Positions 1,110-40,089 of a DNA stretch of 64,000 nucleotides are shown here, piece by piece (positions within the stretch are counted from its first letter, which is position 1; each line of letters starts with the position of its first letter). The notes beneath the pieces were generated by a model. It searched no databases. It was not told the origin of the DNA and worked only from the letters and a program-made list of their open reading frames with translations. The DNA lies in NCBI GenBank assembly GCA_964036665.1, contig OZ038532.1, positions 1,488,001-1,552,000 on the forward strand. Direction: 5' to 3'. The translations under genes were made by a program, and so were the position numbers. The DNA is from Gordius sp. MW1 (taxonomy: Eukaryota > Nematomorpha > Gordioida > Gordea > Gordiidae).

Positions 1110-1715
1110 AACGCATTTCTTCCAACAAGCGACCCGCCGTTTAAAATTCAATAGTAGCACTTGTAGCTGAATAAAACCATTTGTCAAATATAATTGGGCA
1201 CTCTATGCAAGGTTAATTTTATTTCTATTTTTGTTAATTTCCAGCCATATACAAAATAATAACTTTCCGAATTCCCTTATTTTAAAATCACAAGTACTAT
1301 AAATAGAGGATGAAGAAAAGGTAATACTGATCATATCATTATTGTAAGAATTAAATCATACTAAATCTGATAGACATGATTAAAAAGCATACTATTTCTT
1401 ACATATTACAATAGATACATAAAAGCATTTTTAAATTATTTTGCTGGCCGAATCCGTTTGGGAACTTTAAACCCCGTCCAAGCAAGGCCCGTAATTTATT
1501 TTACCAAAAAGCCCATCCATAATCGTCACTCTTAACCTTGGCGATGCCAACTACATTTGCCTTAAAGTTGGCTATGTCATGATCATCTAAACGTATACGT
1601 TTAAAATGATTTACTAAACCAAGACATTAATTCTTAGTTTAATTTGATCATTAGTCTCTACTGAAGAGTTAGCGCACTCAGTTTCTAATTAAAAGAGAAT
1701 TTAAAGAAAGATTTT
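1110..1715. repeat. Dispersed repeat family R1, copy
   Basis: This stretch resembles 51600-51760 and 53990-54200 in the same orientation and 46870-47300 in the opposite one. Shared landmarks include a GC-rich core and the stretch around 1540-1580 with GGCGATGCCAAC. No coding capacity is seen. Its right part is shared with the start of each receptor duplication unit, so the duplication boundary lies within repeat sequence. Confidence 0.55.
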
Positions 1716-2729
1716 TTCTCCAACTCGTCAAGCCCCGGCTCTTAAAAAAACCACGCTGTATTAATATTTACCCTTGTCACGTGATTACTGGGTATGGTTT
1801 TTATTGATATTCTATATATTTATTTCATAATATTTATCCGATAAGGACATTCGAAATTTAATCCGATACATTTTCTTTTATATTAATAAACAATCCGATA
1901 TATAAAACTAGGAACCATCATCAGGACGCCGCGTAATATCTATAGACGAGTAGTGGTATGTTATGTGGTTGTTTATAACTCATTCCAAATTTAATGAAAG
2001 ACCAACAAATGTATTTTTTTAACAATACACTACACTTTACAAAGCTTTATATTAGCTAGTATTTCGAATTATAGAATACCATATGTGACGTTATTCACAT
2101 TTCTATCCTATGCTAGTGAGGGTCATGCCAATCTTTGAAATTCCTTTATCGAGCAAATGGCAAACTATAATTTCTAACCCTTCAATTTTGTGGGTCAAGA
2201 GGGTCTTCTTTAATGTTTAATCAATTTGATTATTAATCATCGAATAGGGGGCAATGGTTAATTATATTTGCTTATGTGTTTCAAATAGTCGAGATAACTT
2301 ATTGAATATTGTAATTAAAAATTTGATAACACTAAGTTGCTATAAGATATTTTAAGTATATTGTTACAACACACATATCCTCCTTAAACACATGCATATA
2401 GAGCCATTAGTCTCCATATATTGGATGTTGCATATTAATTTAACAAGTTGGTGTGATAAGAACTGGCAACATGACAATTTATATTTAGGTCAACAATTCT
2501 ATTATTGATTTTAAAATTATATGAATTAATTAAAAGGAATCTACAAATTTAAATAGGTCAATACTTTATATAAACAATAAGAGGCGTCTCATAGCATATA
2601 AGGCGAAATTTAGAGCATTATAGATTTTAATTAAAATCGTGTGCCAAGTAAGTCCATGTAAGTCAATATTTTATTTTGTCCGTGAAATAACCATAATAAT
2701 TGAGACTACTAAAATTTTATCACTGTTTA

Positions 2730-3207
2730 TGCCTTATACAAATATCTTAGCCAAGTTGACTTTGAATCTAGCAAACCCAAGTTTCTTTTAAATATATTTG
2801 TGGAGTAGAAATATAATAAATGGAATAACCTTACCCATCTTAGTGGTAGATGGAATGGTTGAAAGTGGATTTTACTATATGTCAAACAGAGTGGTTTCAA
2901 AAAGTTAAAGTAATAGAAAAAAGAAACACATAGTATCTGTTCACCTGTTTCTTAGAGCTGTAACCCTTTCCGATTTCATATTGTCCTTATTCATTATCCC
3001 TATTTTAGCATATATGTTAAAATACGAGACAGGTTTCGCTAGTAAATGGTATGTCTTTTATGTAATTAAAGTCAATTTTCCCCTATTAGATACGTTTGCT
3101 AACTTCAGCAATTACATTCGTTTAGGTGAATCACTGGGACGTTTGTGTGCTTTAACATTCCCACATTATTTAAAACAACATTGCAAGAGCTGGCGAATTA
3201 GTTATAT
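2730..3207 (+). pseudogene. Truncated 7TM receptor pseudogene, copy 1
   Basis: This is homologous to the first half (about residues 1-160) of the intact receptor at 8830-10113, from MPYTNILAKL through transmembrane segments 1-3 to the start of segment 4. An early indel shifts the frame near 2780. A nonsense codon replaces Glu in the SKSES motif at about 2905 (GAA to TAA). The open stretch 2981-3207 preserves the LSDFIL-type TM2 and the FANFSNYIRLG stretch of TM3. Reading continues at 3208 into inserted repeat DNA. The same nonsense change is present in copy 2. Confidence 0.9.
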
Positions 3208-3985
3208 TAATTGCTATGCAATTTATGGGCTCGTTTTTTGTTGTCCGTCCGTCCGTCCGTTACCCTTCAAGTTAATGGCGCCAGCTTGGTGACCTGGAGG
3301 TGTCGGGTTCAAGCCAGGGAGGGGACGAATTTTTTTTTAATTTTTTTAAATTAAATTAATATTTTGTTCTTGTTAATACCATTGATAATATGACTTTTTG
3401 ACCGTCCGCTGGCTACTGACCGATGAAATATATTGATTTTCTAAACATAAAACACAACTTTTAATTGCTATGCAATTTATGGTATTATTTCATTATCTAT
3501 ATAAATAACATAAAAACTTCTACTATTTTAAAACCAGCATGGTGTGACGGGTTATAGCGCCGGCTTGTAAACATATGCCTTTACTGATGTGGGTTCGAAT
3601 CCCGGAGAGGGCAAAATTTTATTTTTTTTAAATTAAATTAATATTTTGTTCTTGTTAATACCATTGATAATATGACTTTTTGATCGTCCGCAGGCTACTG
3701 ACCAATGGAAAAAATGACCATTGGCCAAATAAATCGAAATTTTTTTTCGTTTTTACATTGGTTAACATTGATAATTACCCTATGCCTTCCCCTACAAGGC
3801 CTATAACTAATTAACTAATTATTTTGCATTTAATACCCCCCTATAGGCATTCTCGCCCCTTCCCACCTTTCTCGCCCATTAATTGCATAACAAATATGCT
3901 ACGTTTATACGGAGTATAGAAGAGTTCCCCCTTCCCTTCCCCTACTCCCATTCCCCTCTTCCCCTTCCCACGAGGGCCGAAGGCC
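3208..3985. mobile_element. Insertion holding two tRNA-derived SINE-like repeats
   Basis: Copies 2 and 3 lack this block between the codons flanking 3207 and 3986, so it is an insertion into receptor copy 1. It contains two related units. One has a tRNA-like head near 3268-3325 with GGGTTCAAGCC. The other has a head at about 3545-3612 with GGGTTCGAATCC, a perfect RNA polymerase III B box. Both heads are followed by the same T-rich tail (3330-3420 and 3615-3710) ending in a GGCTACTGACC motif. A 22-bp block, TTAATTGCTATGCAATTTATGG, occurs at 3209 and again at 3461. The remainder to 3985 is a pyrimidine-rich strand without genes. Confidence 0.6.
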
Positions 3986-4014
3986 CGAGTTAATATTAGC
4001 TATAGAATTTTTTG

Positions 4015-5765
4015 TTTTGTAATTTATTTTACCAAAAAGCCCATCCATGATCTTCACTCTCATTATATTTTTAACCTTGGCGATGCCAATTACATTTGTC
4101 TTAAAGTTGGCTAAGTCATGATCATCTAAACGTATACGTTTAAAATGATTTACTAAACCAAGGTATTAATTCTTAGTTTGATCAGTATCTACTGTAGAAT
4201 TAGCGCACTCAGTTTCTAATTAAAAGAGATTTTAAAGAAAGATTTTCCCCCTACTCGTCAAGCCCCGACTCTTACAAAAACCATGCTGTATTAATATTTA
4301 CCCTGGTCACGTGATTATTGGGTATTGTTTTTATTGATATTCTATATATTTATTTAATAATATTTATCCGATACGTCTACATTCGAAATTTAATCCGATA
4401 CATTTTCTTTTGTACTAATACACAGTCCGATATATAATACTAGGAACCATCACCAGGACGCCGCGTAATATCCATAGACGAGTAGTGGTATGTTATGTGG
4501 TTGGTTATAGCTCATTCCAAATTTAATGAGAGACCAACAAATGTATTTTTTTAACAATATAGTAGTACGCTTTACAAAGCTTTATATTAGCTATTATTTC
4601 GAATTATAGAATACCATATGTGACGTTAATCACATTTCTATCCTATGCTAGTGATGGTCATGCCATTTAAAATTCTTTTATCGAGCAAATGGCAAACTGT
4701 AATTTCTAACCCTTTAAATTTTGTGGGTCAAGAGGGTCTTCTTTAATGTTTAACCAATTTGATTATAAATCATCGAAATAGAGGGAAATGGTTAATTATA
4801 TTTGCTTAGCCTTTCTAATAGTCGAGATAACTTATTAAATATTGTAAAATTTTACAACACTAAGTTGTTATAAGATATTTTAGATATATTGCTTTAACAC
4901 ACATATCCTCCTTAAACACATGCATATAGAGCCATTCGAAGTCTCCATATATTGGATGTTGCATTTTAATTTAACAAGTTGGTGTGATAAGAACTGGCAA
5001 CATGACAATTTATATTTAGGTCAACAATTCTATTATTGATTTTAAAATTATATGAATTAATTAAAAGGAATCTACAAATTTAAATAGGTCAATACTTTAT
5101 ATAAACAATAAGAGGCGTCTCATAGCATATAAGGCGAAATTTAGAGCATTAAATATTTTAATTAAAATCGTGTGCCAAGTAAGTCCATGTAAGTCAACAT
5201 TTTATTTTGTCCGTGAAATAACCATCATAATTTAGACTACTAAAATTTTATCACTGTTTATGCCTTATACAAATATCTTAGCCAAGTTAACTTTGAATCT
5301 AGCCAAGAAAACCCAAGTTTCTTTTAAATATATCTTGTGGAGTAGAAATATAATAAATGGAATAACTTTATCCATCTTAGTAGTAGATGGAATGGTTGGA
5401 AGTGGATTTTACTATATGTCAAACAGAGTGGTTTCAAAAAGTTAAAGTAATAGAAAAAAGAAACACATAGTATCTGTTCACCTGTTTATTAGAGCTGTAA
5501 CCCTTTCCGATTTCATATTGTCCTTTTTTATTATCCCTATTTTAGCATATATGTTAAAATACGAGACAGGTTTCGCTAGTAAATGGTATGTCTTTTATGT
5601 AATTAAAGTCAATTCCCCTATTAGATACGTTTGCCAACTTCAGCAATTACATTCGTTTAGGTAAATCACTGGGACGTTTGTGTGCTTTAACATTCCCACA
5701 TTACTTAAAACAACCTTGCAAGAGCTGGCGAATTAGTTATATAATATTAGCTATAGAATTTTTTG
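4015..5765 (+). repeat. Receptor-locus duplication unit 2
   Basis: This is the direct repeat of unit 1 without the SINE block, about 1.75 kb long. It begins with the same dispersed-repeat edge (TTTACCAAAAAGCCCATCC). It carries the full upstream region and the first half of the receptor, then runs straight into unit 3 at about 5765. Units 1 and 2 are clearly more alike than either is to unit 3, including shared loss-of-function changes and absence of the MITE found in units 3 and 4. Confidence 0.85.
5260..5756 (+). pseudogene. Truncated 7TM receptor pseudogene, copy 2
   Basis: The start codon and first 61 codons are open (MPYTNILAKLTLNLAKKTQ onward, then TM1). They end at the nonsense codon shared with copy 1 (5443-5445). 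Downstream the sequence still encodes TM2 and the EKYETGF-type loop region, with a single-base deletion near 5612. Coding similarity stops at the unit boundary in TM4. It cannot make a receptor. The shared nonsense codon shows that copies 1 and 2 arose by duplication of an already dead copy. Confidence 0.9.
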
Positions 5766-6238
5766 TTTTGTAATTTATTTTACCAAAAAGCCCATCCATG
5801 ATCTTCACTCTTATTATATTTTTAACCTTGGCGATGCCAACTACATTTGCCTTAAAGTTGGCTATGTCATGATCGTCTAAACGTATACGTTTAAAATGAT
5901 TTACTAAACCAAGTTATTAATTCTTAGTTCAATTTAATCATTAGTCTCTACTGTAGAATTAGCCCACTAAGTTTCTAAATAAAAGAGATTTTAAAGTAAG
6001 TTTTTCCCGTACCCGTCAAGCATCGACTCTCTTATACCTCGCTCTGAAAATAATAGTTCCCCTGGTTACGTGAATATTGGATATTGTTTTTATTGATGTT
6101 TTAAATATTTAATTTATAATATTAATCTAATACGTGGACATTCGAAATTTAATCTGATACATTTTCTTTTACTAATAAAACAGTTCACTATATAAAACTA
6201 GGAACCATCATCAGGACGCCTCTTAATATCTATAGACG

Positions 6239-7858
6239 CAGTAGCGTAGGGAAGAAGGGGGGGGTCCCCCCTTGGCAAAAAATTGAATTTTTTTCAAATT
6301 ATACGGAAAAATTCAATGATAGAAGTCTTGTTTGCGCATTTAGAAATAATAAGTTATCTTAATTAATTTGAAATTTAATTTTAGATGAAATATACTAATT
6401 CTAACACTATTTGTACAAAAATTTCTGTCCCGAGTGCGTGTTTTGTAATAGGAAGAAATATAATTCTTAATTATTTATCTAAAAAACTATCTTAACCTCT
6501 AAAATAAACGAGGAATGCTGATATAAACCAATTTTATTTAATAGGGTTATTTGAACTTACATTAGTTCCTTGTTTAAAGAAATTTTGGATATACAACTAG
6601 AGACGAGTATAATAATAAGATACAAATAATTAATATTAAGGTAAATGATAATTTTACAAAGCGTTTTGCAAATTTCTTGCATGCATGCTTCATTTTTAAA
6701 CATACTTTAAAATTTAATTTATTTAATAATTGTGCGTGCTGATTCTAGAGTCAAACTGTGCGTACTAATTCAACTAAAAATTAGTATTGCCTATGGTTTA
6801 GTAAATTCAATTTTTGAAGTTTAATTTTTAATGATCATGATATAGCTAACTTTATTATAGCTGGCACCCCCAAAGCCGGGCATGGGCTTTTGTTAAAAAT
6901 TGCGGGCCTGGCTTGGACGAGCGTTATGGTAATAAAACGGGCGCGGGACGGTTCTAGCTATTAGTAGGGGCAAAACCTTTATGTTTTAATAGATATAAAT
7001 GGTGTTTTTTATGATGTTTCTCAAATTTTATTATTATTTAATTTTACAATATAAACATATCCCTATTAATTTTTGTTTGCTATTTATTCATAGAACTTGT
7101 GATACTTAAAGAAGTGGTTTCTAATGTTTTTATTTTTTTAAAAGGGGATCGTGATACATTAACAAAAATATGTATATTTAGTATAAAATAATGCTAGCAT
7201 AGAGTTTCAATTATCATAAATGGTTTTATGCAGCTTCAAGTGCTCCTAATGAAAATTTAACTTGTTGGAAGAAACAAAAGCCTGTTTGAGGCTGATGTAT
7301 TTAACATGACTAATATTTAATTCAACATATAAATAAATAATTGTTTTGGTACTGATAAATAATGTTTACATAGCCGCAGATTATATATTATTTTTTTGGG
7401 AAGGTGTAGGCTGGGCCTGTGCATTACAAAAAATCAGCGGGGCGAACTCGGGCTTATAATATCATTTTAACGGTCCCGTGGCGGGACATTTTTTGGTACT
7501 GGTGGAAAAATTAAGCCTAAAAGGCCCATGCAAGTGTTAAGTGTTTAGTTCAACAATGTGCCGAATTAGCACATACAGAAAAATTGGAAGGAGCTCTTTG
7601 CAATTTGGCATTTCTCACCAAAAACCCATCTTAGATATTGAATTTATATAATTTTAATTAGGTTTTGTTTACACAAAATTCTTTGACACAAAATTTACCC
7701 TCCCCCCCCCCCCCCCCCTCCTACCCCTTACTTAGATGATCCTGCCTTTGCCACTACTGTATATAAGCCTAAAATTCTTTTTTTTTAAATATGATTATAT
7801 ATCAAAAAAATTTGAACCCCTCCCCCCCTCCCATGAGGCAATCCTGGCTACGCCTATG
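6239..7858. mobile_element. 1.6 kb hAT-like non-autonomous DNA element
   Basis: The empty site is visible in receptor units 1 and 2, which read TATAGACGAGTAG without interruption. Here that site is split, with TATAGACG at 6231-6238 and TATAGGCG at 7859-7866 as an imperfect 8-bp target duplication. The ends are inverted and similar: CAGTAGCGTAGGGA on the left, and the complement of CTGGCTACGCCTATG on the right. Inside are homopolymer C/G tracts near 6260 and 7700-7720. The central part is homologous, in places, to the arms of the large inverted repeat (46560-47964). No transposase is present, so it must have moved with help from another element. Confidence 0.8.
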
Positions 7859-8334
7859 TATAGGCGAGTAGTGGTATGTTATGTGGTTGGTTATAAGCAT
7901 TCCGAATTTAATGAGAGACCAACGGATGTATTTTTTAGCATTATAGCGAAGTTTTCTATTAGCTAGTATTTCGAATCATAGAGTTCTTGAAATTACGTTA
8001 ATCACATTCCTTTCCTTGCTAATGAATCACCGATTTTTTTGGTCATGTCCAATCTTTGAAAATCTATTATCGCGAAAATGGCAAACTATAATTTCTAACC
8101 CTTTTTATTTTGTGGTTCGAGAGGCTCTTCTATAGTGTTTAATCAATTTGATTATAAAGCATCTAAAGAGGGGGGAAAGGTTATTTCATATTCGCCTATG
8201 GGTTTCAAATAATTGAGAAAATTTATTAAATATTGTAATTGAATAATTGACAACACTAAGCTGTTATAAAATATTTTAGAGAATATATTGTTTAAACACT
8301 CATATCCTCCTTAAACACATGTATAAAGACATGA

Positions 8335-8500
8335 GCGTAGAGATCATTGGAAATAGAGGGGCCCAATAATGATTTAGAGAGGGGCAAAATGATCATTTTT
8401 TAAAATTTTAGGCATAACTTTAATAAATTTCAACAAATTTATAGATTTAAATGGGGGCAACAGCCCCTCCCTGCCCCCCCCCCTGGTTACGCCCATGCAT
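8335..8500. mobile_element. Small MITE shared by receptor units 3 and 4
   Basis: The block from about GAGCGTAGAGATC to GGTTACGCCCATG is absent from units 1 and 2, where ACACATGCATATAGAGCC is continuous. It is present at the same position in unit 4 (about 36965-37130). A third copy lies at 42685-42832. Its core is GGGGCAAAATGATCATTTTT, with short GC-rich inverted ends that include a GGCGTAG/CTACGCC-type motif. It encodes nothing. Confidence 0.7.
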
Positions 8501-8829
8501 ATAGAGCCATTCCAAGTCTCCATATATAGCATGTTGCATTTTAATTCAACAAGTCGGTGTATAAAAATTGACCACATGAAATTTTTTGTTTAGGTCTAGC
8601 ACTTATATTTGGGTCAACAATTCTATTATTGATTTTAAAATTATAAGAATTAATTAAAGATCTACAAATATAAATAGGTCAATACTTTATATTAGCATAT
8701 GAGGCGAAATTTAAAGCATTATAAAATTTGATTAAAATCGTGTGCCAAATCAGTAATATTTTATTTTATTCGTGCCAAAAAATAACCATTATTTCATAAT
8801 TTTGACATACTAATATTTTATCACTCTTT

Positions 8830-10113
8830 ATGCCTTATACATATATCTTAGACAAGATGAGTTTGAATATAGCCAAGGAAACCGAAGTCCTCTTCAAATA
8901 CATCCTGTGGAGTAGAAAGATTATATACGGAATAACTTTCCCAATCTTAGTGGTAATCGGAATTGTTGGAAGTGGACTTTACTATATGTCAAACAAAGTC
9001 GCTTCAAAAAGTGAAAGTAATACAAAAAAGAAACACCTATTATCTGTTCACCTGTTTCATAAAGCCGTAACCCTTTCCGATTTCATATTGACCTTATTCA
9101 TTATCCCTATTTTAGCATATATGTTTAAATATGAGACCGGTTTCGCTAGTAAATGGTATGTCTTTTATGTAATAAAAGTCAACTTTCCCCTGTTAAATAC
9201 GTTTGCCAACTTCAGCCATTACATTCGTTTAGGTGTATCATTAGGACGATTGTGTGCTTTAACATCCCCATATTACTTTACACAACCTTGCAGGAACTTG
9301 CATGTTAGTTATCTAATATTAGCTCTAGTATTTTTCGTCTGTCTGGCCTTAGTAATACCGTACAGTTGGGGGTTCAATGTCGTCTATGTAGAAAACAAAA
9401 TAACAAATTTTATAGATGAAATCTTTTTCTTCAACAATATGACAGGCATTTCAAGCATCAGTAACATTAACAATAACACAAAAGAAATAAATTCAAACAA
9501 CAATTTTTGTAAAATTAATGGATATTTTCACGAACCGAATGCTAAATCAAGTATTTGGTTTAATAGCTATCGTCGTTCGATACACGTTATATTATGTGTA
9601 GTCCCATTACTAATAACTGTTATTTTGAATACCATTACGACTTGTTGCTATTTAGATCGGCTAAAACCAAAAAACAAAATAAGAAAATCGGATGATAAAA
9701 GTGTTGTTGCAACTAGCAACCTTTTGTTACCATATGTGAAAAGGACTCCTAGTACTAAAAGCGATCACGATGGTATTTCTTTAAGCATAATGCCTCCGGA
9801 TATACAGACTACAAAGATGAGAGCAGACAGCAATGAATCTACGAAAAACAAATATAGACAAAAAAATGGAATTTTATTCTTGATATTTACCAATATATAT
9901 CTCATTTTAAACATAGTACCAATGACAGTTTACATGTTTGTCTATCAACCATGGACGGATACGTTTAATAGCAAAACTGAACTATGGTTTCAGCATTTCG
10001 CCTACATTACGGAATACGGCTTAAATTGTCTAGGCGTCTATTTGCAATTATATTTTGATCCCGAAATTAATCAAGGATTGAAATGCGTTTGTGAAAATAT
10101 ATGGCGTAAGTAG
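8830..10113 (+). CDS. Seven-transmembrane receptor, GPCR-like, divergent
   Basis: This is a 427-residue single-exon open frame starting at ATG 8830. An in-frame alternative ATG lies 10 codons on (MSLNIAKETE). Hydrophobic segments lie at about residues 33-55, 78-100, 112-135, 154-175, 252-275, 348-370 and 388-410, fitting a seven-helix receptor. The second extracellular loop is long and rich in Asn and Ser, with NMT and NNT sequons and a Cys in NFCKING. The third intracellular loop (about 276-345) is basic and polar. A tail with DPEINQGLKC follows TM7. The rhodopsin-family marks are altered: the TM3 end reads SLGRLCAL instead of D/E-R-Y, and TM7 has NCLGVYLQLY instead of NPxxY. This supports a plasma-membrane receptor of unknown ligand. 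A chemosensory or other lineage-expanded receptor is an alternative. Three pseudogene copies nearby show a locally expanding locus. Confidence 0.8.
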   Translation: MPYTYILDKMSLNIAKETEVLFKYILWSRKIIYGITFPILVVIGIVGSGLYYMSNKVASKSESNTKKKHLLSVHLFHKAVTLSDFILTLFIIPILAYMFKYETGFASKWYVFYVIKVNFPLLNTFANFSHYIRLGVSLGRLCALTSPYYFTQPCRNLHVSYLILALVFFVCLALVIPYSWGFNVVYVENKITNFIDEIFFFNNMTGISSISNINNNTKEINSNNNFCKINGYFHEPNAKSSIWFNSYRRSIHVILCVVPLLITVILNTITTCCYLDRLKPKNKIRKSDDKSVVATSNLLLPYVKRTPSTKSDHDGISLSIMPPDIQTTKMRADSNESTKNKYRQKNGILFLIFTNIYLILNIVPMTVYMFVYQPWTDTFNSKTELWFQHFAYITEYGLNCLGVYLQLYFDPEINQGLKCVCENIWRK

Positions 10114-13113: not shown

Positions 13114-13540
13114 TGTGGTGTTCCCCCCGCTTACTTATTTTTACTCATTTATTTTTATGGCCCATTTTAATCATAAGTCGTAGTTGTAGCGATTTTATTG
13201 CTTTTACTCTGGATTGTGCCGAGTAACCGTGATGATCTTTTTTTTAGATATCGCTAGTTAAACTGGCACATAAGAAACTAATAAAAAGGCTAAATATAAT
13301 TTAAGAAATGAAATAGTCATCTACGAGCCATAGTCACATATATCCCTTTGTTTTTTAAAACGCATTCATTCCTTTTTTTTCCTTTTCAAAATTACAAAGT
13401 CATATTATTTGTTCAAAATTACGAAATCATATTATTTGCCCCCAAATTACGAAATCAAATTATTTGTTCTAAGTAACTAAATCTTATTATTTATTCCAAA
13501 CTATATATAGACAATAAAGAATTCGAATCGAAACAAAAAG
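13114..13540 (+). repeat. 5' LTR of element A
   Basis: About 427 bp, matched by 17287-17708 with scattered substitutions and small indels. The 3' third contains tandem units of about 25 bp around ACGAAATCATATTATTTG (13385-13500). Confidence 0.88.
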
Positions 13541-13541
13541 G

Positions 13542-13590
13542 TGGTGTCTGAAGTGGGATCTGAACCCACGCCCTCATTCAAGGACCAGAG
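13542..13590 (+). promoter_or_regulatory. Extended tRNA-Leu-complementary primer binding site
   Basis: Beginning TGGTGTCTGAAGTGGGATC and continuing for about 49 bp, this reads as the reverse complement of the 3' half of a class II leucine tRNA. It covers CCA, acceptor 3' strand, T arm (GAACCC), a long variable arm and the TCTGGT side of the anticodon stem. A usual primer site is 8-18 bp, so the match is unusually long. The remaining bases to 13600 enter the inverted repeat. Confidence 0.8.
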
Positions 13591-13676
13591 GGGGGAACAA
13601 ACAAATAAAAACAAATAAGCTAGTCCCCGCCCTCTTACGAGAAGTCGAAGCGGCTGCCCCATTGAGGTTCAGGACT
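13591..13676. repeat. Left arm of internal inverted repeat in element A
   Basis: This is the reverse complement of 16798-16880 with few mismatches. Both carry the AATAAGCTAGTCCCC and GGCTGCCCCAT blocks in opposite orientation. The arm lies immediately after the primer site. Confidence 0.85.
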
Positions 13677-16314
13677 TGATTGCCCAGTGTTGCTTTACAG
13701 AGCTGGGTGCCAAGTCCAGTAGCCATAAAGTACCCCATTTTATAACTGATTCACAGTGCGGGATTTTATCGATTAAATCCGTCGTCCATGAATCAGTTCC
13801 GAGGGCAAAGGCAAAACTTATCACAACATGGCCAGCAGAAATTATATTAATTTTGGCCAAATTTTCGGACATTTTGGAAAATAATTTGGGCTGTGTTAAT
13901 GATAGAATTATTTCAATTAGAGTAAATTCAAACGCCATACCTAAATTTTGTCCTGCTAGACGCTTACCTTTAATTATAAAATATAAAGTAAATGCTGTAA
14001 TTTTAGATTGGCTTAAAGACGAGGTGATTGAACCCATAGATTATTCGGAATGGGCTACACCTTTAGTACCGGTCAGGAAACCTGAAGGAACGGTACGCGT
14101 CTGTGCTGACTATAGAGTTACAGTTAGTAAATTTATTATTGAAATAAAATACCCGCTGCCGAGATTAGAATGATTTTCGTTAAATTACAGGGAGCTAAAT
14201 TTTTTTCAAAAATTGATTGGCTAGCGCGTACTTACAGCTTAAGGTAGACGAAAGGTCGTCACGGCTTTTAGCATTTAATACTGATGCCGGACTATTTAAA
14301 TTCAAGAGATTACCTTTCGGCTTAAGCGTTTCAGCTGCTATTTTTCAACAGACAATAACTTCCATTTTTTGTAATTTAGACGGCGTAATATTTTATTTAG
14401 ACGACATTTTAGTCACTGGCATAACTAAAGAAGAACGCGATATGCGCCTAATCAAAGTTCTTGATTTAATTAAAGTAAAAGCATTAAAAGTTTCGGCTAA
14501 AAAAATGCGTTTTTCGAACTGAACAGATCCTATTAGGTCATATTTTAAGTGATGGTAATTTTCAACCTAAATATGACAAAGTTATGACAATTAAAGATAT
14601 TAAAATCCAACTAATAAAAAGGAGCTATCGTCATTTTTGGGCGTAATGAATTATTATAGTCGCTTTATTAATAATTATATGAAATTCGCTGGACCATTAT
14701 ATGAATTGACCAAAAAGTCTGTTTTATTTAAATGGGACGAAACTCATACAAATAATTTTAATTATTTAAAGAATGTTTTACTAACCAAACCCGTATTAAG
14801 ATGTTACAACCCTGACAAGCAATAAATTTTAAGAGGCGATGCGTCGAATGTAGGCATCGGCGGCGCATTATGTCAAGTCGAGGATAACATTGAACATCCT
14901 ATTTTGTATTTTTCACGTAAACTAAACAAAACATAGGTCCGATATTCTGTTATTAAACGAGAGGCTCTAGTAATGTACGGATTACAGCGATGTAGAGAAT
15001 ATTTAATCGGTAAATCGTTTACTGTAGTCAGGATCACAAACATCTTGTTGCTTTATTAAAAAAAGCTAACGATCAACTACTAATGTCCGGTAGATTACAG
15101 CGTTGGCTAGTTATGTTAAGAGATTTTTCCTTAACTCTTAAATAATGCATAGATGAAGAAAATCATTTAGCTGATGTATTATCGCGTTTAGGCGCGGATG
15201 ACATCGATGCTGATAATGATTCTTTATCTTGCGAGATTTTCGGAGGAGAGGTCATAAATATAATTAAAATTTTGTATTAAAATGACATAATAACCGAGAA
15301 TAATGCAGATCTTGATATAATTAAGGTTACAAATATTTTACTTGGCTTGGACGATGACACTGACATCCCATCACCCTTTAAATATGTCTTAAACGAAATG
15401 TATTTAGAAGATGACGTGCTTAAAAGACAGGAAAGGTTAGTGGTTCCTAGTAAACTTCGCCAAGATGTGTTAAATGTTTTACATCAAGGTCATGCAGGGA
15501 TGGTTAAGATGAAAGGACTAGCTAGACAATATGTCTGGTGGCCTAAAATTAACAAAGACAGTGAGAACTTCGTCAGGCAGTGCGGGCTATGTAAGCTTGA
15601 CGCACCAATGCCGCGAAGAAATAAAAGGCTAGATGGCCTCGTTCCAGATTTCTGTGGGAGAGAATACATGTTATTTTTATTGAATTTGACAAGAAACGTT
15701 CTATATTAATTGTCGATGCATATTCCGGTTGGACGAAATTTAAAAACATTTTTAGCATGTCAGGTAGAGTAAATAAATATTTTAAAAGAATTATTTGGCG
15801 CGTACGGGTTACCTACCTACATTGTTACAGATAATGGAAAGGCTTTCGTAAGCGTAGAATTTAAAATTTTTTGTTTAGAATTTAACATTAACCATTTACT
15901 AACGCCTCCTTATCACCCTAGCTCAGACGGACAGGTGGAGAGGTATGTAGGAATAGTTAAAAAATGGTTAAGAGTAGCTAAAGAAACGAAGGGAGGTACA
16001 TGGATGTTAGATTATATCATAATATGGCACCAAGATTTCCTAATAGTGCGTCTGTGAGCTACGAATTTTTAAGCAGAAAGTTGAGGTACCCGCCTGACTT
16101 GTTTCAATATCTCGAACCAGAACTATCTAGGTCAAGTAGTCCTAGATTAAAGCTTAATCAGAAGGTTTGGTATAGGAACTACTTTAAGGAACCTAGGTGG
16201 GTACTAGGCGAGATAGTAGTGCAGGTAGGCTCAAAGATTTATAAGATTAAAATTGCAGAAACAAATAAGATTGAGACTAGGCATGAAGAACAGATTAAAT
16301 TGTACAATGCTTAA
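13676..16314 (+). pseudogene. Element A pol: reverse transcriptase, RNase H, integrase
   Basis: The fragments are collinear. The RT N-terminal part at 13920-14173 includes WATPLVPVRKPEG and CADYR. The RT palm at 14217-14522 has LPFGLS and FYLDDIL, with the catalytic YxDD retained. RNase H spans about 14637-15200, with GDASNVGIGGAL and, near its end, ENHLADVLSRLG across frames. The integrase zinc-binding region at 15420-15600 has an H-x-GHAG...CGLC pattern. The catalytic core at about 15790-15960 has TDNGKAF and SSDGQVERY. The C-terminal part is 16000-16314. At least five frame breaks separate these blocks. The first 80 or so residues of the 13676 frame may include a degraded protease but show no clear DTG. 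Confidence 0.85.
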
Positions 16315-16797: not shown

Positions 16798-16880
16798 GAA
16801 GTCTTGAACCTTATGGGGCAGCCGCTTTGACTTCTCGTTAGAAGGGGACTAGCTTATTTGTTTTTGTTTGTTTGTCCCCC
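16798..16880. repeat. Right arm of internal inverted repeat in element A
   Basis: This is complementary to 13591-13676. Reading GGGGCAGCCGCTTTGACTTC and GGGGACTAGCTTATTTG, it pairs with the left arm over about 80 bp. RNA from the element could form a panhandle linking the primer site to the region after pol. Confidence 0.85.
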
Positions 16881-17050
16881 CCACACACATACACATATAT
16901 GCATAACTTTTACTCTCCTCTTTATGATGAATCATATTTATTTGTACGTCTATGATATATATTATCCTTCCGTAACGATTCTTATACGCGTTCATTATCC
17001 AAAAATAAAAAAAAGAAGAAAGAGGCGCGACATTTGAAAAAAAAGAAAAA

Positions 17051-17274: not shown

Positions 17275-17286
17275 TAAAGGGGGAGG
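17275..17286 (+). promoter_or_regulatory. Polypurine tract of element A
   Basis: AAAGGGGGAGG lies directly before the 3' LTR, the expected plus-strand priming site. Confidence 0.75.
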
Positions 17287-17708
17287 TGTGGTGTTCTCCA
17301 CGCTTACTTATTTTTACTCATCTATTTTTAGGGCCCCTTTTAGTCATAAGTCCTAGTTAAAGCGATTTTATTGCTTTTACTCTGGATTGTGCCGAGTAAA
17401 CATGATGATCTTTTTTTAGATATCGCTAGTTAAAATGGCACATAAGAAACTAATAAAAAGGCTAAATATAATTTAAGAAATTAAATAGTCATCTACGAGC
17501 CATAGTCATATATATCCCTTTGTTTTTTAAAACGCATTCATTCCTTTTTTTCCTTTACAAATTTACGAAATCATATTATTTGTTCAAAATTACGAAATCA
17601 TATTATTTCAAATTACGAAATCATATTATTTGTTCCAAATTACAAAATCATATTATTTGTTCCAAATTATGGATATAGACAATAAAGAATCCTAATCGAA
17701 ACAAAAAA
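17287..17708 (+). repeat. 3' LTR of element A
   Basis: This matches 13114-13540 along its length. It is followed at 17709 by the remainder of the interrupted B LTR. Confidence 0.88.
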
Positions 17709-18556: not shown

Positions 18557-20468
18557 GTGAACCATTTTCATTTGGAAGGAGATGCTTCACGCCCACTTCA
18601 TGGATTGATAGTAAATGACAATGTTTTAAAATTTGAAATTGACACAGGCTCGGCTGTGACCTTAATAAATTCTATCAATGGGGTTCACCTGGCTACTCAA
18701 CCTTGTAGTACTGTGTTAAGGAGTTACAATGGTACACTTATACCGGTAAAAGGAACGGCGAAAGTCAAAGTTAAAGAACAGGACTCAACCTATCAACTTC
18801 TTATTCATGTCGTTGATGGGGACGGTGAAAACATTTTGGGAAAACACTGGTTAAAAATCTTCCCACCCATTACGTCAGCTAGTTGGGAATTGGAAGAGCA
18901 ACAAACATTTCCAACTGCACGAGCACTACGAAAATGTTTTGTCAAATTATTAGAAAATGAACTGGGAGGGGTAGTCGGTTATGAGGCGACGCTTAAATTT
19001 AAAAATAAGTTGTGTCCGCGTTTTTTCCGTCCTAGACCTATTCCCTATATGTTAAAACCTAAAATTGACCAAGAATTAGATAGGTTAGTTGAAGGAGTTT
19101 TAAAACCAATAAAATATGCCGAACACGTTGCACCTATTGTAACAGTTATTAAAAGTAATGGACACATACGCATTTGCGGCGACTTCCGTGATTTAACCAA
19201 GCACCTTTTAATTAAAAAATATCCCTTGCCACGTTTTCAAGATATATTTGCACAACTAGGCGGTTGTAAATATTTTTCCGTTTTGGACCTTAAGGACGCC
19301 TACTTTCAAATAAAGGTTAGCGAAAATTTTAAAAACCTATTAACCATTAATACACATCGTGGACATTTTTTACACTAAACTACCTTTTTGTATAGCCTCG
19401 GCACCAGTTATTTTACAAAGATTTATGGACTCATTATGGAATTATAATGGAAATGTAGTTTACCTCCATGACATTATTATAGCGGGTAAATTGTTAGAAG
19501 ACTACAATCAAAAATTAGAAAAAGTTTTTAAAAAATTGGAGAGAACTGGCTTAAAATTAAAATTAGAAAAGTGTTAATTACAAAAAAAAGTGGAATACTT
19601 AGGGCATACGATTAGTGAAGACGGAATTTTTACAACTGACAAAAACACTAAAGCAATTTTAACAGCCCCAGCCCCAACTAAAATAAAAGAACTACAATCT
19701 TTTTAAGGCATGGCCACATACTACGCAAAATTTATAACAAAATTATCTACTTTAGCACAACCGCTTTATAAACTGCTAAGAAAAACAATAACTTCGAATT
19801 GGTCTCTAGACTGCGCAAATGCCTTTAACATTAAAAAATTAATTATCCAAGCCCCGATATTAAAGCATTTTGATCCTGAGTTACCATTAAAACTCTCGAC
19901 AAATGCTTCGTCTGAGGGACTGGGCGCAGTACTCGCACATGAAATTAAAGGTTATCAGCACCCAATTGCTTTTATTTCCCGCACCCTTAACGCCGCCGAA
20001 AGAAATTATAGTCAGATTAAAAAAGAAGCTTTAGCCATTAGTTTTGCTTTTAATAAATTTAAGGAATATTTATATGGCCACTATTTTACATTAATAACAG
20101 ATCACAAACCCTTAATATCACTATTTAATCCTAACAGAAATGTACCGCAGGCCGTTTCAGCGAGACTTCAGAAATGGACCTTATTGACAACACCCTATCT
20201 TTATACCATAAAATATAAAAATGGCAAAGAAAATACACAGGCTGATATGTTATCTAGACTTCCGATACAATCTGAAGAAACGCTAGAACAAGGGGGGGAA
20301 GATATATACACCATTTATAAAGAACCATTTCAACATTTTCCCATTACATCAGCCGACATAGAGCGTCATACTCGTAAAGATCCTATCCAGGGACAAGTCT
20401 ATAACTATGTACTCCATGGCTGGCAGGAGAAAGTTGCTCCAGAGCTAATAATGTACCAACAACGATAA
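18557..20468 (+). pseudogene. Element B protease, reverse transcriptase and RNase H
   Basis: The aspartic protease motif EIDTGSAVTL lies at about residues 28-38 of the 18557 frame. RT follows from about 19020 (RPRPIPYMLKPKID, then CGDFRDL and KYPLPRFQDIF) and passes a frameshift near 19365. The palm motif reads VVYLHDIII, so the catalytic YxDD has become YLHD. RNase H covers 19860-20250. Its first catalytic motif reads STNASSEGLGAVL with Asn in place of the expected Asp, while TDHKPL is retained. These substitutions, several stops and a frameshift show a non-functional enzyme. Confidence 0.88.
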
Positions 20469-25707: not shown

Positions 25708-26962
25708 AAGGTTGAGGAGAAAGTTCGGTAGGGTGCAACACATGTTGCATTATTTTATCGATTTTATGCTTCTGATGAAATATATAATATTCATTAAGTA
25801 GAACTCTTTCCCCTTTTTAAAAAATTTAGTTTTTTATAACTTTTGCGACGTCAAAATGGAGTATCCAAACGGTAAAAATTAACATTTTCGACACCTGCTA
25901 TTCTTCGGTTTTCATCGTGGTCAAAACGCTGCTGAAACAGCCCGAGACATTTGTAAAGTATACGGAGAAGGTGTCATAGTTGAGTCTACACGCAAAAATG
26001 GTTCGCAAAGTTCAAAAATGGCGATTTTGACATCGCTGACAAGCCCCGTAGCGGAAGACCCTCGGAATTCGACGAAGAGTGTCTCAGAGCACTTTTGAAG
26101 GAGGACGGTCGCCAAACAAGTCGTGAATCGGCGGTAATAATGAAGTTTGATCAGAAAACCATCCTAAATCATCTTCATTCGATGGGATTTGCCGAAAAAT
26201 TGGGATCTTGGATGCCTCACGAGCTTAACAAAAGCCACAAAGAAAATCGCCTTCAAATTGCTTCTCAACATCTCGCCCGTCATCACCCGCGGTCATAAAC
26301 AGCGCTTTTTGTACCGAATCGTCACGGGAGATGAGAAATGGTGTTTGTACGTAAATTTGAAGCAAAGAAAGGAGTGGGTGGCTCCTGAAGCGACTCCAAA
26401 GCCGAGGGTCAAGCCTGACCTCCATCCAAAAAAGACCATGATCTGCGTTTGGTGGGACTGGTTCTGCATTGGGAAATTCTGGAAAGAAATGCCACGGTCA
26501 ACAAGGAGCTCTATATATCCCAGCTACACCGCATGAATGAGGCTATTCGACTCAAAAGACCCCATCGACAAGGCCAGACCATACCCCTTCACGACATCGC
26601 AAGGCCCCATGTTGCTCAAGTCGTAAAAACCGCACTCCAAGAGCTCGAATGGGAGGTCCTTCAGCATCCACCATATTCTCTGGACCTTGCACCGACGGAT
26701 TACCATATTTTCCGCTCTCTCTCGAACCATATAAGGGACGTTACCTTGGACGTAGAGGGCCTTAAAAACTGGCTCAACAACTTCTTCGATACCAGACCGG
26801 TCGATTTTTGGCGTAATGGCATCGAAAAATTGGTCAAAGGGTGGGAGGAGGTCGTAAACAGCAACGGCGAATGTATTATTGAATAAGTTATTGTTATAAC
26901 AATAAATAATCGTTAAATAAAAGACTTTGATAAAAACTCTACGAACTTTTTCCTCAACCTAA
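25708..26962 (+). mobile_element. mariner transposon
   Basis: Inverted ends match: GGTTGAGGAGAAAGTTCG near 25710, and the complement of CGAACTTTTTCCTCAACC at 26942-26959. TA flanks lie at 25706-25707 and 26963-26964. The 1.25 kb length fits the mariner family, and one transposase remnant fills it. Confidence 0.85.
25857..26886 (+). pseudogene. mariner transposase (D,D34D), frame-broken
   Basis: The N-terminal paired helix-turn-helix region includes GQNAAETARDICKVYGE, WFAKFKNGDFDI and DKPRSGRPSE, followed by the second recognition helix and WMPHELNKSHKENR (a variant of the WVPHEL linker motif). The catalytic domain shows GDEKW with the first Asp, HDIARPH with the second, and DLAPTDYHIF with the third. 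The last two are spaced D34D as in mariners. A stop at about 25882, a frame change near 26290 and another near 26450 break the enzyme. All catalytic Asp residues remain, so inactivation is fairly recent. The last frame ends at 26886. Confidence 0.88.
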
Positions 26963-29217: not shown

Positions 29218-32042
29218 CAGAGCTGTTAAGAACTAGTTTATTTTGAACTAGTTCATAGAACTAGTTCATTTTTTTCTGAACTTAGAACTGAACTAGTTAC
29301 CTTCCCAAAAATTTGAACTGTGAACTTGAACTAGTTCATTTTTTTAAGATTGAACTTGAACTTGAACTAGTTATTTTTTTTCTAATTCTGAACTTGAACT
29401 TGAGCTATACAATGTAATTGAACTAGTTCATCACAAATATATTATTTAAAATAAATTTATAAGCCGAGTGTATATGCGTCAACAATTTGACGTGCATGGT
29501 CTTGTCGGTAATCATACAGACACACAGTAACCGCAAATTTTTGATTTTAAAAACACAAAATTTTTTAGAAAAGATGGATACCATTTCTGAAGTAGATAAT
29601 AGGAACGAGGCAGCTCAATCTACCTTTTTACCTTGGCCTTCAATGGAAGAATACTTCAAATATGTATCTTCAGATAAAGATTCATTCAAAGTTAAGTGCA
29701 AACTATGCACTAAAGTTGTGGCGGCTTCAAGAACCTCAACAGCCAATTTATGGAGACAAATAAAGGTAATAAGAATAACGTATTATAATTTATAATATAA
29801 AATCTAGGTGTCTCACTATCAAAAACATGATGAGATTAAGAAGGCTGTCAAGAATAAGGCTGGAAAAAGTTGTGAAGCTAACAAAAAGTTAACACAGACC
29901 TTAATTGACAGGCCTTTAAACCAAAATTCCCCAATGGCCATTATCAAATATATAATCAATGGTAATCAACCATTTTCGCTATGTGATGATGAGCACTTCA
30001 ATGAATTGTTGAGGGCTTTTAATCCAAAAGCAAAAACAATTTGTAGGCAAACACTCACAGGGAAGGTGATGAAATTTGCTGCAAAGATGAAAGATACAGT
30101 TAGAACAAAGTTAATGGCACCCAAGTATGTATGTACAAATGCAGACTGTTGGACAGCATTTAATAAGTACTTATTAATTTCTCTAAAATTGTCAATTTAT
30201 TTTTTTTGTTAGGTCATTTATTGGGGTAACAGCTCATTGGATAGACGATGAGAGTCTTAAAAGAGTTGATGCAGTTCTAGCCTGCAAATGTTTAGAGGGG
30301 AGGCACTCTTTTGATGTTATATGCAAATCCCTTACTCAAATTTACAAAGAGTACCATATTCAAAACAAAAATATCTGTACAATTACTGACAACGGATCTA
30401 ATTTCGTTAAAGCATTCAGGTACTATTTATATAATTCTTCTTTCCTAACTTTTATATAGGATTTTTAATGAAAATGATGAGATGCAGGAGGAAGTAGTAT
30501 CTCTTAAGGATATACTTGATCGGGCTGGTTTAGAGGGACATAATCAAAATGATTATGATTTATCTACCCAAACATAAGAGATGTGCTTGTCACACCCTAA
30601 ATCTGATTACTACAAGTGATGTTAACAAGCTTTTGAAAAACAATAATGCGTTTACTAAATTATATAATTCTTCATTCTGTAAGTGCCAGGCACTTTGGAA
30701 CCTCAATAGCAGATCCACATTATCGGCACAAACCATACGTAACCGTTTTGGGTGTAATATACCCTACCCTGTAGTAACTAGATGGAATTCAACATTTGAT
30801 TCCATCTCTGTTATAATAAAAATGATTCAAAATAAGCCTAGTGATTTTCATACTCTCTGTGATGAATTGAGGCTTGAAAGGCTTTCTTTGGAAGAATCAA
30901 ATTTTTTACAGGAATATCACTTAGTGAGTCATTATTTTAAATTTATTTAATTTTTTTAAGGTAATGGAGCCACTTGCTAAGGCCCTTGAAATTTTGCAGG
31001 GGCAAACATACATGTATATGGCTTATTATACACCTACCATAAGCCAGATTCAGTTATGTCTGCAGAATAGGGTAAACTTAAAATGGGCTCAACCATTAAA
31101 AGATGCTATTTTGAAAGGAATAAACATCAGGTATCAAATATAAATGGATTCTAATATATAAATCATATGGTTTTAAGATTTCCTGATCTCTATGATGAGG
31201 AAAATATTATTGCAGCTGTCCTGCATCCAATTTTTAAGACAGACTGGGCTTGGATCCGGTCACCAGAAAATGTGGAGGAAAGGTCCAGAATCTTAAAAGC
31301 AATAAATTTACTAGTGCCTCAAACAACTGATAATATGGAGGTGCATGATACACAGAATGGTTTAGATTTTTTTGATATAATACGTGAGAATTCTAATAAA
31401 GAAACAATTGAAGACTATATTAAATTAAATAATACCTCATTCGATGAATTTCCCAATCTAAAACAAATTTTTATAAAATTTAATGTTTGCCTCCCATCTA
31501 GTGCTCCAGTTGAAAGGCTTTTCAGTCTGGGAAAGCTTATATTTGGAGATAAACGTACTTGTTTATTAAACGATAATTTTGAGAACAATATTTTATTAAA
31601 GTCCAATGGACATCTACTTTCACATGATTTTTATTGTAAATTATAATTGTATATTGTTTGTATGTAATAAAGATTTTAAACATTGTATAGTTGATGATTT
31701 TGTTATATATGAATATTTCCTTAAATTAGATTTTCAAATATATAATAAACTTTGAAATTTATTTAAAATTTTGGATAGCTCTCAAAAAAACTGATTTTAA
31801 TTTAGGAATCATTGCCTAAATTAAAACTTTATCATATTTAAAAAAATGAACTGAACTTTAACTAGTTATTTTTGTAAAATTGAACTATTAACTTGAACTA
31901 GTTACATTTTTTCCTACATGAACTTGAACTTGAACTAGTTACTTTTGAAAAAAAAATGAACTTGAACTTGAACTAATGATTTTTTCAAATTGAACTATGA
32001 ACTTGAACTAGTTCGTAACATAGATGAACTTTAACAGCTCTG
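29218..32042 (+). mobile_element. hAT transposon, near-complete
   Basis: An 8-bp target duplication ATAGTCAG lies at 29210-29217 and 32043-32050. It fits the hAT preference (T at 2, A at 7). Terminal inverted repeats are CAGAGCTGTTAA and TTAACAGCTCTG. Both subterminal zones (29230-29440 and 31850-32030) carry many GAACTTGAACTAGTT-type repeats, likely transposase binding sites. One transposase gene fills the centre. Total 2825 bp. Confidence 0.95.
29574..31646 (+). pseudogene. hAT transposase, six exons, one frameshift
   Basis: Exons by GT-AG rules and protein continuity are 29574-29765, 29808-30166, 30213-30419, 30460-30923, 30961-31130 and 31178-31646. The introns are 42, 46, 40, 37 and 47 bp. 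The N-terminal BED-type zinc finger includes KVKCKLCTKVV and a SHYQKHDE end. The catalytic part includes GVTAHWID, ITDNGSNFVKAF, KRCACHTLNL and TRWNSTFDS. The C-terminal dimerisation region has LPSSAPVERLFSLG. The joined exons total 1861 bp, one base over a multiple of three. A one-base frameshift is placed near 30560, between the EGHNQND stretch and LPKHKR. Apart from that, no stop was seen. Confidence 0.9.
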
Positions 32043-36030: not shown

Positions 36031-37490
36031 AATTAGTTCACTTCGGGCCGGGCTCGGGCCAAGGCGCCTAATATTTAACAAAAATCCCATCCATGGCCGT
36101 CACTTTTATTATAATTTTAACCTTGCCTATGCACACTACATCTGCCTTAAAATTAGCAAGTCATGATCATTTAAACGCTTACATTGAAAATTATTTACTA
36201 AACCATGATACTAATTCTTAGTTGAATTTTGTCATCAATCTCTATTGTAGAATCGGCGCACTCAGTTTCTAAATAAAAGAGATTTTAAAGTTTCCAGTAC
36301 TCGTCAAGCACCAACTCTCTTATACCTCGCTCTAAAAATATTTTTCCTTGTCACGTGATATATTGTTTTTAATGATATTCTATATTGTAAATTTATACTA
36401 TTAATCCACTACGCGGACGTTCGAAATTTAATCCGATACATTTTCTTTTATGCAAAATGGTTCGATATCTAAAACTAGTAACCATCATCAGGACGCCTCG
36501 TAATATCTAGAGACGAGTAAGGTATGTTATGTGGTTGGTTATATATAACTCATTCCGAATTTAATGAGAGACCAACGGTATTTTTCAGCATTATAGCTCG
36601 CTTAACGAAGCTTTATCTTAGAGTATTTTGATTCATAGAGTTCTCGATGACGTTAATCACATTCCTCATATGCTAGTGATGGTCATGCCCATCTTTGAAA
36701 TTCTATTATTGAGCAAATGGCAAACTATAATTTCTAACCTTATGTATTTTGTGGGTCAAGAGGCTTTTCTTTAATGTTTAACCAATTTGATTATAAAGCA
36801 TCGAAAAAAGGGAAATGGTTGTTTCATATTCGCTTATGCGTTTATAATAGTCGAGAATATTTAGTGTATATTGTAATTGAAAATTTGACAACACTAAGTT
36901 GTTAAAAATTATCTCAGATATTATAATGTTTAAGCACACATATCTTCCTTAAACATATGTATATAGACATAAACGTAGCCAGCATTGGAATTAGAGGGGG
37001 GCAATAATGATTTAGGGAGGGGCAAAATGATCATTTTCGAAGTTTAGACATAATTTTAATAAATTTTAACCAATTTTTGAATTTAGAGGGGGGCAACCGC
37101 CCTTCCCTGCCCCCCTTGACTACGCCCATGCAGATAGAGCCATTTAAAGTCTCCATATATAGGATGTTGGATTTTAATTTAACAAGTCGGTGTCAAAAAA
37201 ATTAGCCACATGACCATTTTTTGTCTTAGGCCTAGCACTAATATTTGGGTTAACAATTTTATTATTGATTTTAAAATTATAAGAATTAATTGAAATAGAT
37301 CTACAAATTTAAATGGGTCAATACTTTATATAAACAATAGGGGGCGTTTCATAGCATATGAGGTGAAATTTAGTGCATTAGATTAAAATCGTGTGCCAAA
37401 TAAGTGCATATAAGTCAATATTTTCTTTAGTCCGTGCCAAAAAATAACCATCATTTCATAATTTAGACTTACTACATTTTATCACTGTTT
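36030..37490 (+). repeat. Receptor-locus unit 4, upstream part
   Basis: This aligns with the upstream regions of units 1-3: TTTACTAAACCATGATACTAA, the GGACGCCTCGTAATATC block at 36495, and the CATATGTATATAGACAT block at 36955. It carries at 36965-37130 the same MITE at the same place as unit 3. It lacks the 1.6 kb insertion found in unit 3. Confidence 0.8.
36965..37130. mobile_element. MITE copy in receptor unit 4
   Basis: This is orthologous to the insertion at 8335-8500. It starts near AACGTAGCCAGC and ends GACTACGCCCATG, with GGGGCAAAATGATCATTTT in the centre. Confidence 0.7.
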
Positions 37491-37822
37491 ATGCCTTATA
37501 CACATATCTAAGACAAGATGACTTTGAATATAGCCAAGGAAACCGAAGTTTTCTTTAAATACATAAGATTATTTATGGAATAACTTCACCCATCTTAGTG
37601 GTAATCGGAATTGTTGGAGGTGGACTTTACTATATGTCAAACAATGTCGCTTCAGAAAGTGAAAGTAATAGAAAAAAGAAACACATAGTATCTGTTAACC
37701 TGTTTCTTAGAGCTGTAACCCTTTCCGATTTCATATTGTCCTTATTCATTATCCCTTTTTTAGCATATATGTTAAAATATGAGACAGGTTTAGCTAGCAA
37801 GTGGTATGTCTTTTATATAATT

Positions 37823-39949: not shown

Positions 39950-40089
39950 TAATTAAAGTCAATTTTCCTCTGTTAAATACGTTTGCCAACTTCAGCAATT
40001 ACATTCGTTTAGGTGTATCATTAAGGTGTGCTTTAACATTCCCACATTACTTGACACAACCTTGCAAGAACCGGTGTCAGGTTATATCG

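Follow-up and report, generated by a model that had tools for sequence, protein, structure and literature searches.

We found that a broken LTR retrotransposon (element A) in the window, a stretch of 64,000 nucleotides of Gordius sp. MW1 (contig OZ038532.1, positions 1,488,001 to 1,552,000), carries behind its 5' LTR a 48-bp copy of the 3' part of its primer tRNA. We consider it highly likely that these 48 bp were copied from the primer as cDNA, when dead-end plus-strand strong-stop DNA (+sssDNA) of the type known from Ty3 was extended into the tRNA, switched to a different template and became integrated. The copy contains CCA and has a C opposite A58 of the tRNA; over the genome, such copies end in clusters, a part of them is followed by inverted partners, some of the partners end at an exact base, and some of the resulting insertions are flanked by target duplications. 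Judged from their sequences, dozens of sister elements with over-long tRNA copies seem to record encounters of the enzyme with modified tRNA bases.

Element A is a broken Ty3/gypsy-like LTR retrotransposon, as indicated by its LTR pair, its primer site, its polypurine tract and the order of its pol pieces. The 5' LTR (13114-13539, plus strand), which starts with TGTGGTGTTCC and ends with ...CGAAACAAAAA, aligns directly with the 3' LTR (17287-17707, plus strand) with 391 of 428 columns identical (91%, nine of the columns being gaps), which corresponds to 28 substitutions in 419 gap-free columns, and since the LTRs are 91% identical we consider the element to be old. The polypurine tract AAAGGGGGAGG (17276-17286, plus strand) was read directly and precedes the 3' LTR. 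The pol pieces, all on the plus strand, are a reverse transcriptase piece (14217-14519; Pfam RVT_1, 5.9e-14), the start of an RNase H (14604-14822; RT_RNaseH_2, 2e-4), an integrase zinc-binding domain (15281-15706; Integrase_H2C2, 4.7e-15) and an integrase core (15773-16054; rve, 5.9e-7). This is the Ty3/gypsy order, with the frames broken and two of the four pieces (RNase H and the integrase core) below the curated Pfam cut-off. The flanks, read as ...TATACATA and AATAAACT..., show no target site duplication of 4-6 bp. Among 40 of the 126 candidates that were scored, there was no close copy of the element A LTR running into a primer site besides element A itself, and the sole match continuing past the LTR was a distant one at C4:13485960 (70%), which reaches 11 nt into the primer site.

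The 48 nt between the 5' LTR and the body of element A (13542-13589, plus strand; TGGTGTCTGAAGTGGGATCTGAACCCACGCCCTCATTCAAGGACCAGA) are the complement of the 3' part of an end-matured tRNA-Leu(CAA), identical at 45 of 48 positions to the tRNA-Leu(CAA) of this genome with CCA added. A preliminary description of the window had noticed a nearly complete 3' half of a tRNA-Leu at this place, and the comparison confirms it; the length of about 49 bp given there is to be corrected to 48 nt. The parts named in that description are all present, namely, CCA, acceptor strand, T arm, long variable arm and the 3' strand of the anticodon stem, together tRNA positions 76-39. The last tRNA position copied is 39, where the anticodon loop begins, and from 13590 onward the sequence is no longer tRNA. 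Its three mismatches lie at nt 8, nt 19 and nt 39, and the second of these is a C at 13560 (plus strand) opposite A58, where a faithful copy would show T. Most eukaryotic tRNAs carry m1A58. We located the tRNA-Leu genes by an A-box pattern, which gave 11 places, five of them intron-bearing tRNA-Leu(CAA) genes (L030, L032, L034, L035 and L037). All five have A58 and an intron in the anticodon loop and end at the discriminator A with no CCA encoded; therefore, the window matches the end-matured tRNA and not a gene. Compared with these genes of the same organism, as the preliminary description had proposed, the copy aligns well past the first 18 bp, so the poor alignment beyond that point which would speak against the match was not found. 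ARAGORN detected no tRNA gene in the window, LTR included, and Rfam gave three matches on 13400-13750, all far under the gathering scores, and no matches on six loci. A tRNA-Asp called by ARAGORN in L025 was rejected because it requires a 378-nt 'intron' and is built from the same kind of tRNA copy.

Joined straight to the tRNA copy in the window is a segment (13590-13677, plus strand) that is an inverted copy of the element's own 3' internal region. The native copy lies at 16799-16882 (aligned on the minus strand), with 77 of 88 columns identical, and the join has a 2-nt microhomology, GA, assigned by eye and judged on relatives. Three relatives whose LTR pair is readable (C3:252027-257884, C1:8496901-8501159 and C8:36015744-36021440) carry the same segment about 0.4-0.5 kb before the 3' LTR, oriented opposite to 13590-13677; therefore, the tRNA tail in the window was joined to a backward copy of the 3' region. 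The inverted segment differs from the native copy at 7 of 84 sites and the LTRs from each other at 28 of 419 (p 0.64), a similar divergence that fits a single event at insertion. Since L009 and L011 are closer to 13590-13677 (93%) than the element's own 3' region is (88%), the template of the jump may have been a sister RNA. The preliminary description had not noticed this template jump at the end of the extension.

The 212 Mb contain 131 exact matches to the 18-nt Leu primer site and none to the reversed-pattern control, and chance is therefore excluded for the primer-site match; 75 of the 131 sites extend by seven bases or more. We read 115 of these sites, which gave 106 distinct sequences; the 16 unread ones have no TGAACC, so short copies are under-counted. 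After near-duplicates were collapsed, 102 Leu junctions and 38 junctions of a second primer, tRNA-Sec, were left, with the palindromes L004 and L143 counted from both sides. Where TGAACC accompanies the 18-nt site, nt 19 is C in 62 cases, T in 13, and A or G in none. A 29-nt search allowing up to two mismatches anywhere returned 77 places with C in 61 and T in 16, one of the T places lying at a tRNA gene, and at every other position these 77 places show differences in at most three, except at nt 28 (five) and nt 29 (17), where copies end. When nt 19 was exempted from the mismatch penalty, 61 of the 72 collapsed Leu copies that cover it differed from the gene, all by a change of T to C, and no other position differed in more than four copies (nt 21, 4 of 70), the counts being thin at nt 47 (1 of 6) and nt 61 (1 of 1); mismatches at nt 1-18 are hidden by the selection with an 18-mer. 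Among the copies no longer than 20 nt, 19 of 25 carry C at nt 19 (p 1e-7 versus one in four), a set chosen over 33 rows that have no TGA after nt 19 (25 with C), at least four of which are longer copies with a mismatch or a gap. The bases after this C are diverse, and as the C is kept while the following sequence varies, it belongs to the tRNA copy. Two copies, L019 and L004, include the unspliced tRNA intron, both with C opposite A58.

A variant tRNA-Leu gene with G58 was considered as the source of the C and rejected: the respective 22-mer without TGG occurs at 64 places, of which 62 were already known with TGG, and the remaining two (L140 and L141) are altered primer sites, not genes. During reverse transcription, m1A causes arrest and misincorporation in a manner dependent on its 3' neighbour; according to the same report, the m1A-U context favours A in the cDNA, and its text on m1A-A sites gives no single clean outcome (PMC4787781). 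The mark opposite A58 in our read-through copies is C only, never A or G. In one further copy, L123, which reads GGGAT-TGAACCC, one base is missing at A58, possibly a skip over m1A58.

Elements primed by tRNA-Sec were found via L006, and the tRNA-Sec gene, with neither intron nor CCA, is located at L190. The genome has 48 exact 19-nt Sec primer sites, of which 42 were read and 40 counted, giving the 38 collapsed junctions, and a 26-nt search with up to two mismatches found 56 places including the gene, all with T opposite A58. The faithful T is present at 36 of the 38 junctions; of the two exceptions, L152 has a C and L006 an additional A, and both copies end at that point. Thirty-six T among 38 is also not the A that the m1A-U context rule would predict for tRNA-Sec, and our guess is that A58 of tRNA-Sec has little or no methylation. 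Ends near A58 are found at 2 of 38 Sec junctions versus 25 of 102 Leu junctions (p 0.008). Sec copies often run past the anticodon, and L170 and L177/L199 reach the 5' end of the tRNA, the last bases of L170 being ambiguous with an inverted primer site. Ten of the 38 end at 27-30, 11 at 57-68 and none at 40-49.

The ends of the Leu copies are clustered: 25 of the 102 junctions end at 18-20, nine at 21-26, 35 at 27-29, 15 at 30-45, 12 at 46-50, none at 51-59, three at 60 and three beyond 60. Among the 77 copies of at least 21 nt, 50 end at 27-29, 46-50 or 60, compared with about 10 under uniform ends (at most 24 in 5000 draws), where the end classes (18-20, 27-29, 46-50 and 60) were defined after the data had been inspected. 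Nt 19 corresponds to A58, nt 28 to the last T-stem base before the long variable arm, and nt 50 to G37. In known eukaryotic tRNA-Leu, G37 is m1G. We know of no blocking modification at 27-29, where the largest cluster lies; for Leu and Sec alike, this cluster falls at the base of the long variable arm, and since the end position is shared by two class II primers, it suggests that the variable-arm hairpin causes these ends. Modification of G26 to m2,2G as the cause of the 60-nt ends was weakened because Sec copies end at 59-62 too, and these ends may rather reflect the finished anticodon-stem hairpin. A single copy of 76 nt, L020, has T instead of C opposite G26 (about nt 61), possibly by misincorporation at m2,2G26. 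In HIV, strong-stop DNA has its main end at m1A58 and minor ends at Psi55, m5U54 and ms2t6A37, unmodified tRNA is copied fully, and mouse tRNA-Leu(CAA) is listed with m1A58 (PMC13191261).

The ends at 46-50 could also arise if the primer, or the template, was a cut 3' half of the tRNA, as an unligated 3' exon starts at position 38 and its run-off would give copies of about 49 nt with no block by a modification. The intron in the anticodon loop of the tRNA-Leu(CAA) genes, the 12 Leu junctions in that class, the unspliced tRNA copied at two loci, and the combination of an intron-less Sec gene with a lack of Sec junctions at 40-49 all agree with such a cut half, and HIV-1 virions have been found to contain precursor tRNA-Ile (PMC4839721). 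However, m1G37 predicts the same end, and a cut half accounts neither for the ends at 18-20, 27-29 and 60 nor for the C opposite A58. Moreover, six copies run past position 38, and therefore the whole tRNA was used at times. We hold the cut half to be unlikely, though it keeps some weight for the copies of about 48 nt, and prefer read-through of the intact primer.

At 44 of 146 loci, the sequence after the tRNA copy aligns to inverted LTR-side sequence, a count that includes weak cases with arms of 31-60 nt or with starts beyond the LTR. The inverted partner belongs to the same LTR family or to another, different families being joined at L181, L184 and L188, and at L181 and L188 Sec copies are joined to Leu-type LTRs. 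L006 (C7, around 15846500) combines both primers: a Leu-primed LTR followed by 60 nt of tRNA-Leu meets, tail to tail, a tRNA-Sec copy and the LTR belonging to it in inverted orientation, as if two different strong-stop DNAs had been joined. L004 forms a palindrome whose turning point is at the anticodon stem. Thirteen joins lie within 5 nt of the boundary between LTR and primer site, and seven of them (L043, L075, L184, L195, L196, L197 and L198) begin at one primer-site base. Six of the seven (all but L075) were checked by letter, having been chosen because an earlier alignment had placed the join at that base, and two of the six share one base with the tRNA copy. The other joins are at four bases (L144), at five, the limit of the search (L166, L170, L181 and L193), and five nt inside the LTR (L188). 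HIV RNase H leaves the A76 base when the tRNA is removed, and a plus strand made after such a removal should end where the one-base joins begin, which is an indirect indication of such a strand.

Among 14 inverted loci examined, a clean 5-bp target duplication was found at two, L049 (TAAAG) and L197 (ATATC). L197 is the simplest case of LTR>tRNA<LTR, and L049 has about 90 nt of other sequence per arm before the turn. No target duplication was seen at the outer ends of L196, and L192 was ambiguous. For the rest, a polypurine tract flanks one side of L043, L195 and L006, L144 and L004 directly adjoin a further LTR, L193 and L194 are complex, the outer end of L051 is not an LTR end, and the outer ends of L147 and L198 lie beyond the stretch examined. 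Duplications of 5 bp also flank short elements with two direct LTRs, namely, L047 (GTCTT), L048 (CAAAT), L050 (CCTAT), L056 (GAAAC) and L063 (GTCTG), and the LTRs of L047 are 100% identical with 105 bp between them. In L127, a second LTR (98.4% over 312 nt) follows after about 1.1 kb, so that this element is short and not a normal parent element; no second LTR was found for L079 within 3.9 kb, and no autonomous element with an unjumped leader among the loci read.

Post-integration DNA rearrangement or nested insertion, instead of reverse transcription, might have produced the inverted LTR pairs, and the 12 of 14 loci with no clean duplication, as well as some complex loci with tandem LTRs (L144) or tandem arrays (L067-L069 and L145), are in its favor. 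However, seven of the 13 joins near the LTR end start at the same single base, the joins coincide with the 3' end of the tRNA copy, two inverted pairs are enclosed as a whole by duplications, and the joined LTRs can be of different families, all of which make rearrangement improbable compared with joining during reverse transcription. As separate observations, L144 (C6:22503900-22506200) has, beside its inverted LTR pair, a direct LTR-LTR junction resembling the joint of a 2-LTR circle, and the tandem arrays at L067-L069 (C2:17987715-17988959) and L145 (C8:7848200-7850900) consist of an LTR and a short internal part with periods of about 610 and 878 bp.

If instead an ancestral element had possessed one long primer site with C at nt 19, similar to the over-extension sequences that exist in lentiviruses and spumaviruses (PMC13191261), its descendants would have inherited the C and come to vary in length through later deletions. 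The C at nt 19 is indeed common to many LTR families. However, T and C both occur within one family, copy lengths range from 18 to 87, and members of one LTR family mostly have different sequences downstream of the tRNA copy, the few shared junctions being L003/L058, L078/L079 and the L025 pair. The ends cluster at tRNA landmarks, and the intron-containing and 60-nt copies, which must be new read-throughs, still have C in five of six. Inheritance of a long site is therefore very improbable in our view, and no single conserved extension per element family was found among the copies read. Read-through copying of the primer tRNA, one of the origins proposed in the preliminary description, is supported by the CCA, the C opposite A58, the clustered ends, the intron copies and the parallel in tRNA-Sec, whose copies behave similarly but mostly have no A58 mark. 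The same description had suggested that a copy-specific extension would point to a single read-through event; nearly every junction is indeed copy-specific, but read-through is a recurrent product of this genome and not one rare accident. A tRNA gene, tRNA pseudogene or tRNA-derived SINE adjoining the LTR by chance would explain the similarity to tRNA-Leu itself, but has a negligible probability given that CCA is present, the copies read abut LTR ends, most copies have no tRNA 5' half, and ARAGORN was negative in the window.

In yeast Ty3, a dead-end +sssDNA with 12 nt of tRNA is made, followed by a second plus strand ending at U5; the polypurine tract is used again, and the dead-end product accumulates in particles (PMC5371799). 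From the features described above, we infer the tRNA modifications, the +sssDNA intermediate and the order of the jumps in Gordius as follows. The first +sssDNA would copy the LTR and then enter the tRNA, still joined to the minus strand; in the usual course, it would stop early in the tRNA and be discarded, and a later +sssDNA, made after tRNA removal, would carry on. Here, the enzyme would often have passed A58, inserting C opposite m1A58, and then continued as far as the base of the variable arm, the anticodon loop (m1G37) or a point beyond it. The tRNA-bearing tail would be unable to pair properly with the minus-strand primer site, and its 3' end would have jumped, either blunt or via a few homologous bases, to another plus-sense template, be it an internal site of an element, a second LTR strand that terminates one tRNA base beyond U5, or a strand of another element, and the jumped product would then have integrated. 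In the copy in the window, the tail would have stopped at position 39 and jumped to the 3' region of the element, of which 88 nt would have been copied backwards before the internal region resumes.

The arrangement of LTR followed by primer-tRNA copy is shared with the dead-end +sssDNA of Ty3 and Ty1, and a later plus strand ending at U5 may be a further common feature; however, theirs is particle DNA with 12 nt of tRNA, whereas the copies here are 18 to about 90 nt long, joined to other templates and chromosomally fixed (PMC5371799). Similarly, the minor strong-stop products of HIV-1 show read-through past A58 and later stops at modified bases, one of them at position 37, but are retroviral products obtained in vitro or in cells, in contrast to genomic copies with a misincorporation mark and with ends at a long variable arm (PMC13191261). 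The over-extension sequences of lentiviruses and spumaviruses also have tRNA complementarity beyond 18 nt, but these are encoded and shared, whereas the length varies here and the downstream sequence differs in nearly every copy (PMC13191261). Helenus/TRIMp3 are likewise short LTR elements with tRNA-related sequence, some of them primed by tRNA-Leu, but their tRNA-like sequence is inside the LTR, whereas here it is antisense and follows the LTR (PMC10886601). The complex LTR elements of Triticeae resemble ours in that two elements were fused during reverse transcription by template switching and then inserted, but their abstract says nothing of a tRNA copy, of a modification mark or of LTRs paired tail to tail (PMC1950507). 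Among the titles and abstract openings returned by searches of open PMC text, none describes a genomic archive of tRNA read-through with a modification mark.

We give about even odds to the broader reading that this genome is a natural, datable archive of reverse-transcriptase traffic through primer tRNAs, recording misincorporation at m1A58, ends at the variable arm and at the anticodon loop, primer tRNA with its intron still in place, a tRNA removal step that spares a single base, and strong-stop pairs joined tail to tail and accepted by the integrase at two U3 ends. If so, LTR>tRNA<LTR palindromes would represent a type of retrotransposon insertion that recurs but has gone unrecognised, and tRNA-Sec of this organism would mostly lack m1A58, as its copies hardly ever show the mark. 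The genome could then be likened to a fossil tRNA-sequencing experiment. Strong-stop read-through has so far been known from test tubes and particles, and fixed genomic copies would reveal past tRNA modification, primer processing, RNase H cutting and second-strand failure from DNA alone. They also bear on whether animal Ty3/gypsy elements recopy their primer-site DNA from the tRNA like retroviruses or, like yeast Ty3, do not. For annotation, over-long primer sites and tRNA-bridged inverted LTRs can be scars of reverse transcription and not tRNA genes.

The window contains other repeats outside element A. More retroelement pol pieces (RVT_1 below the cut-off, RNase H and Integrase_H2C2) are located at 18557-20465 and 38582-38992, and matches to Transposase_1 and to the hAT dimerisation domain (below the cut-off) at 26449-26886 and 31167-31646 are remains of DNA transposons. 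A repeat family at 1452-9338 and 36160-40023 has copies about 2.53 kb apart near the window start and occurs again at 36-40 kb. A tandem array with a 69-bp unit lies at 41697-42248, and large inverted repeats are found at 46039-47965 and 50272-55005, the best arms being 565 nt long, 98% identical and 7.2 kb apart.
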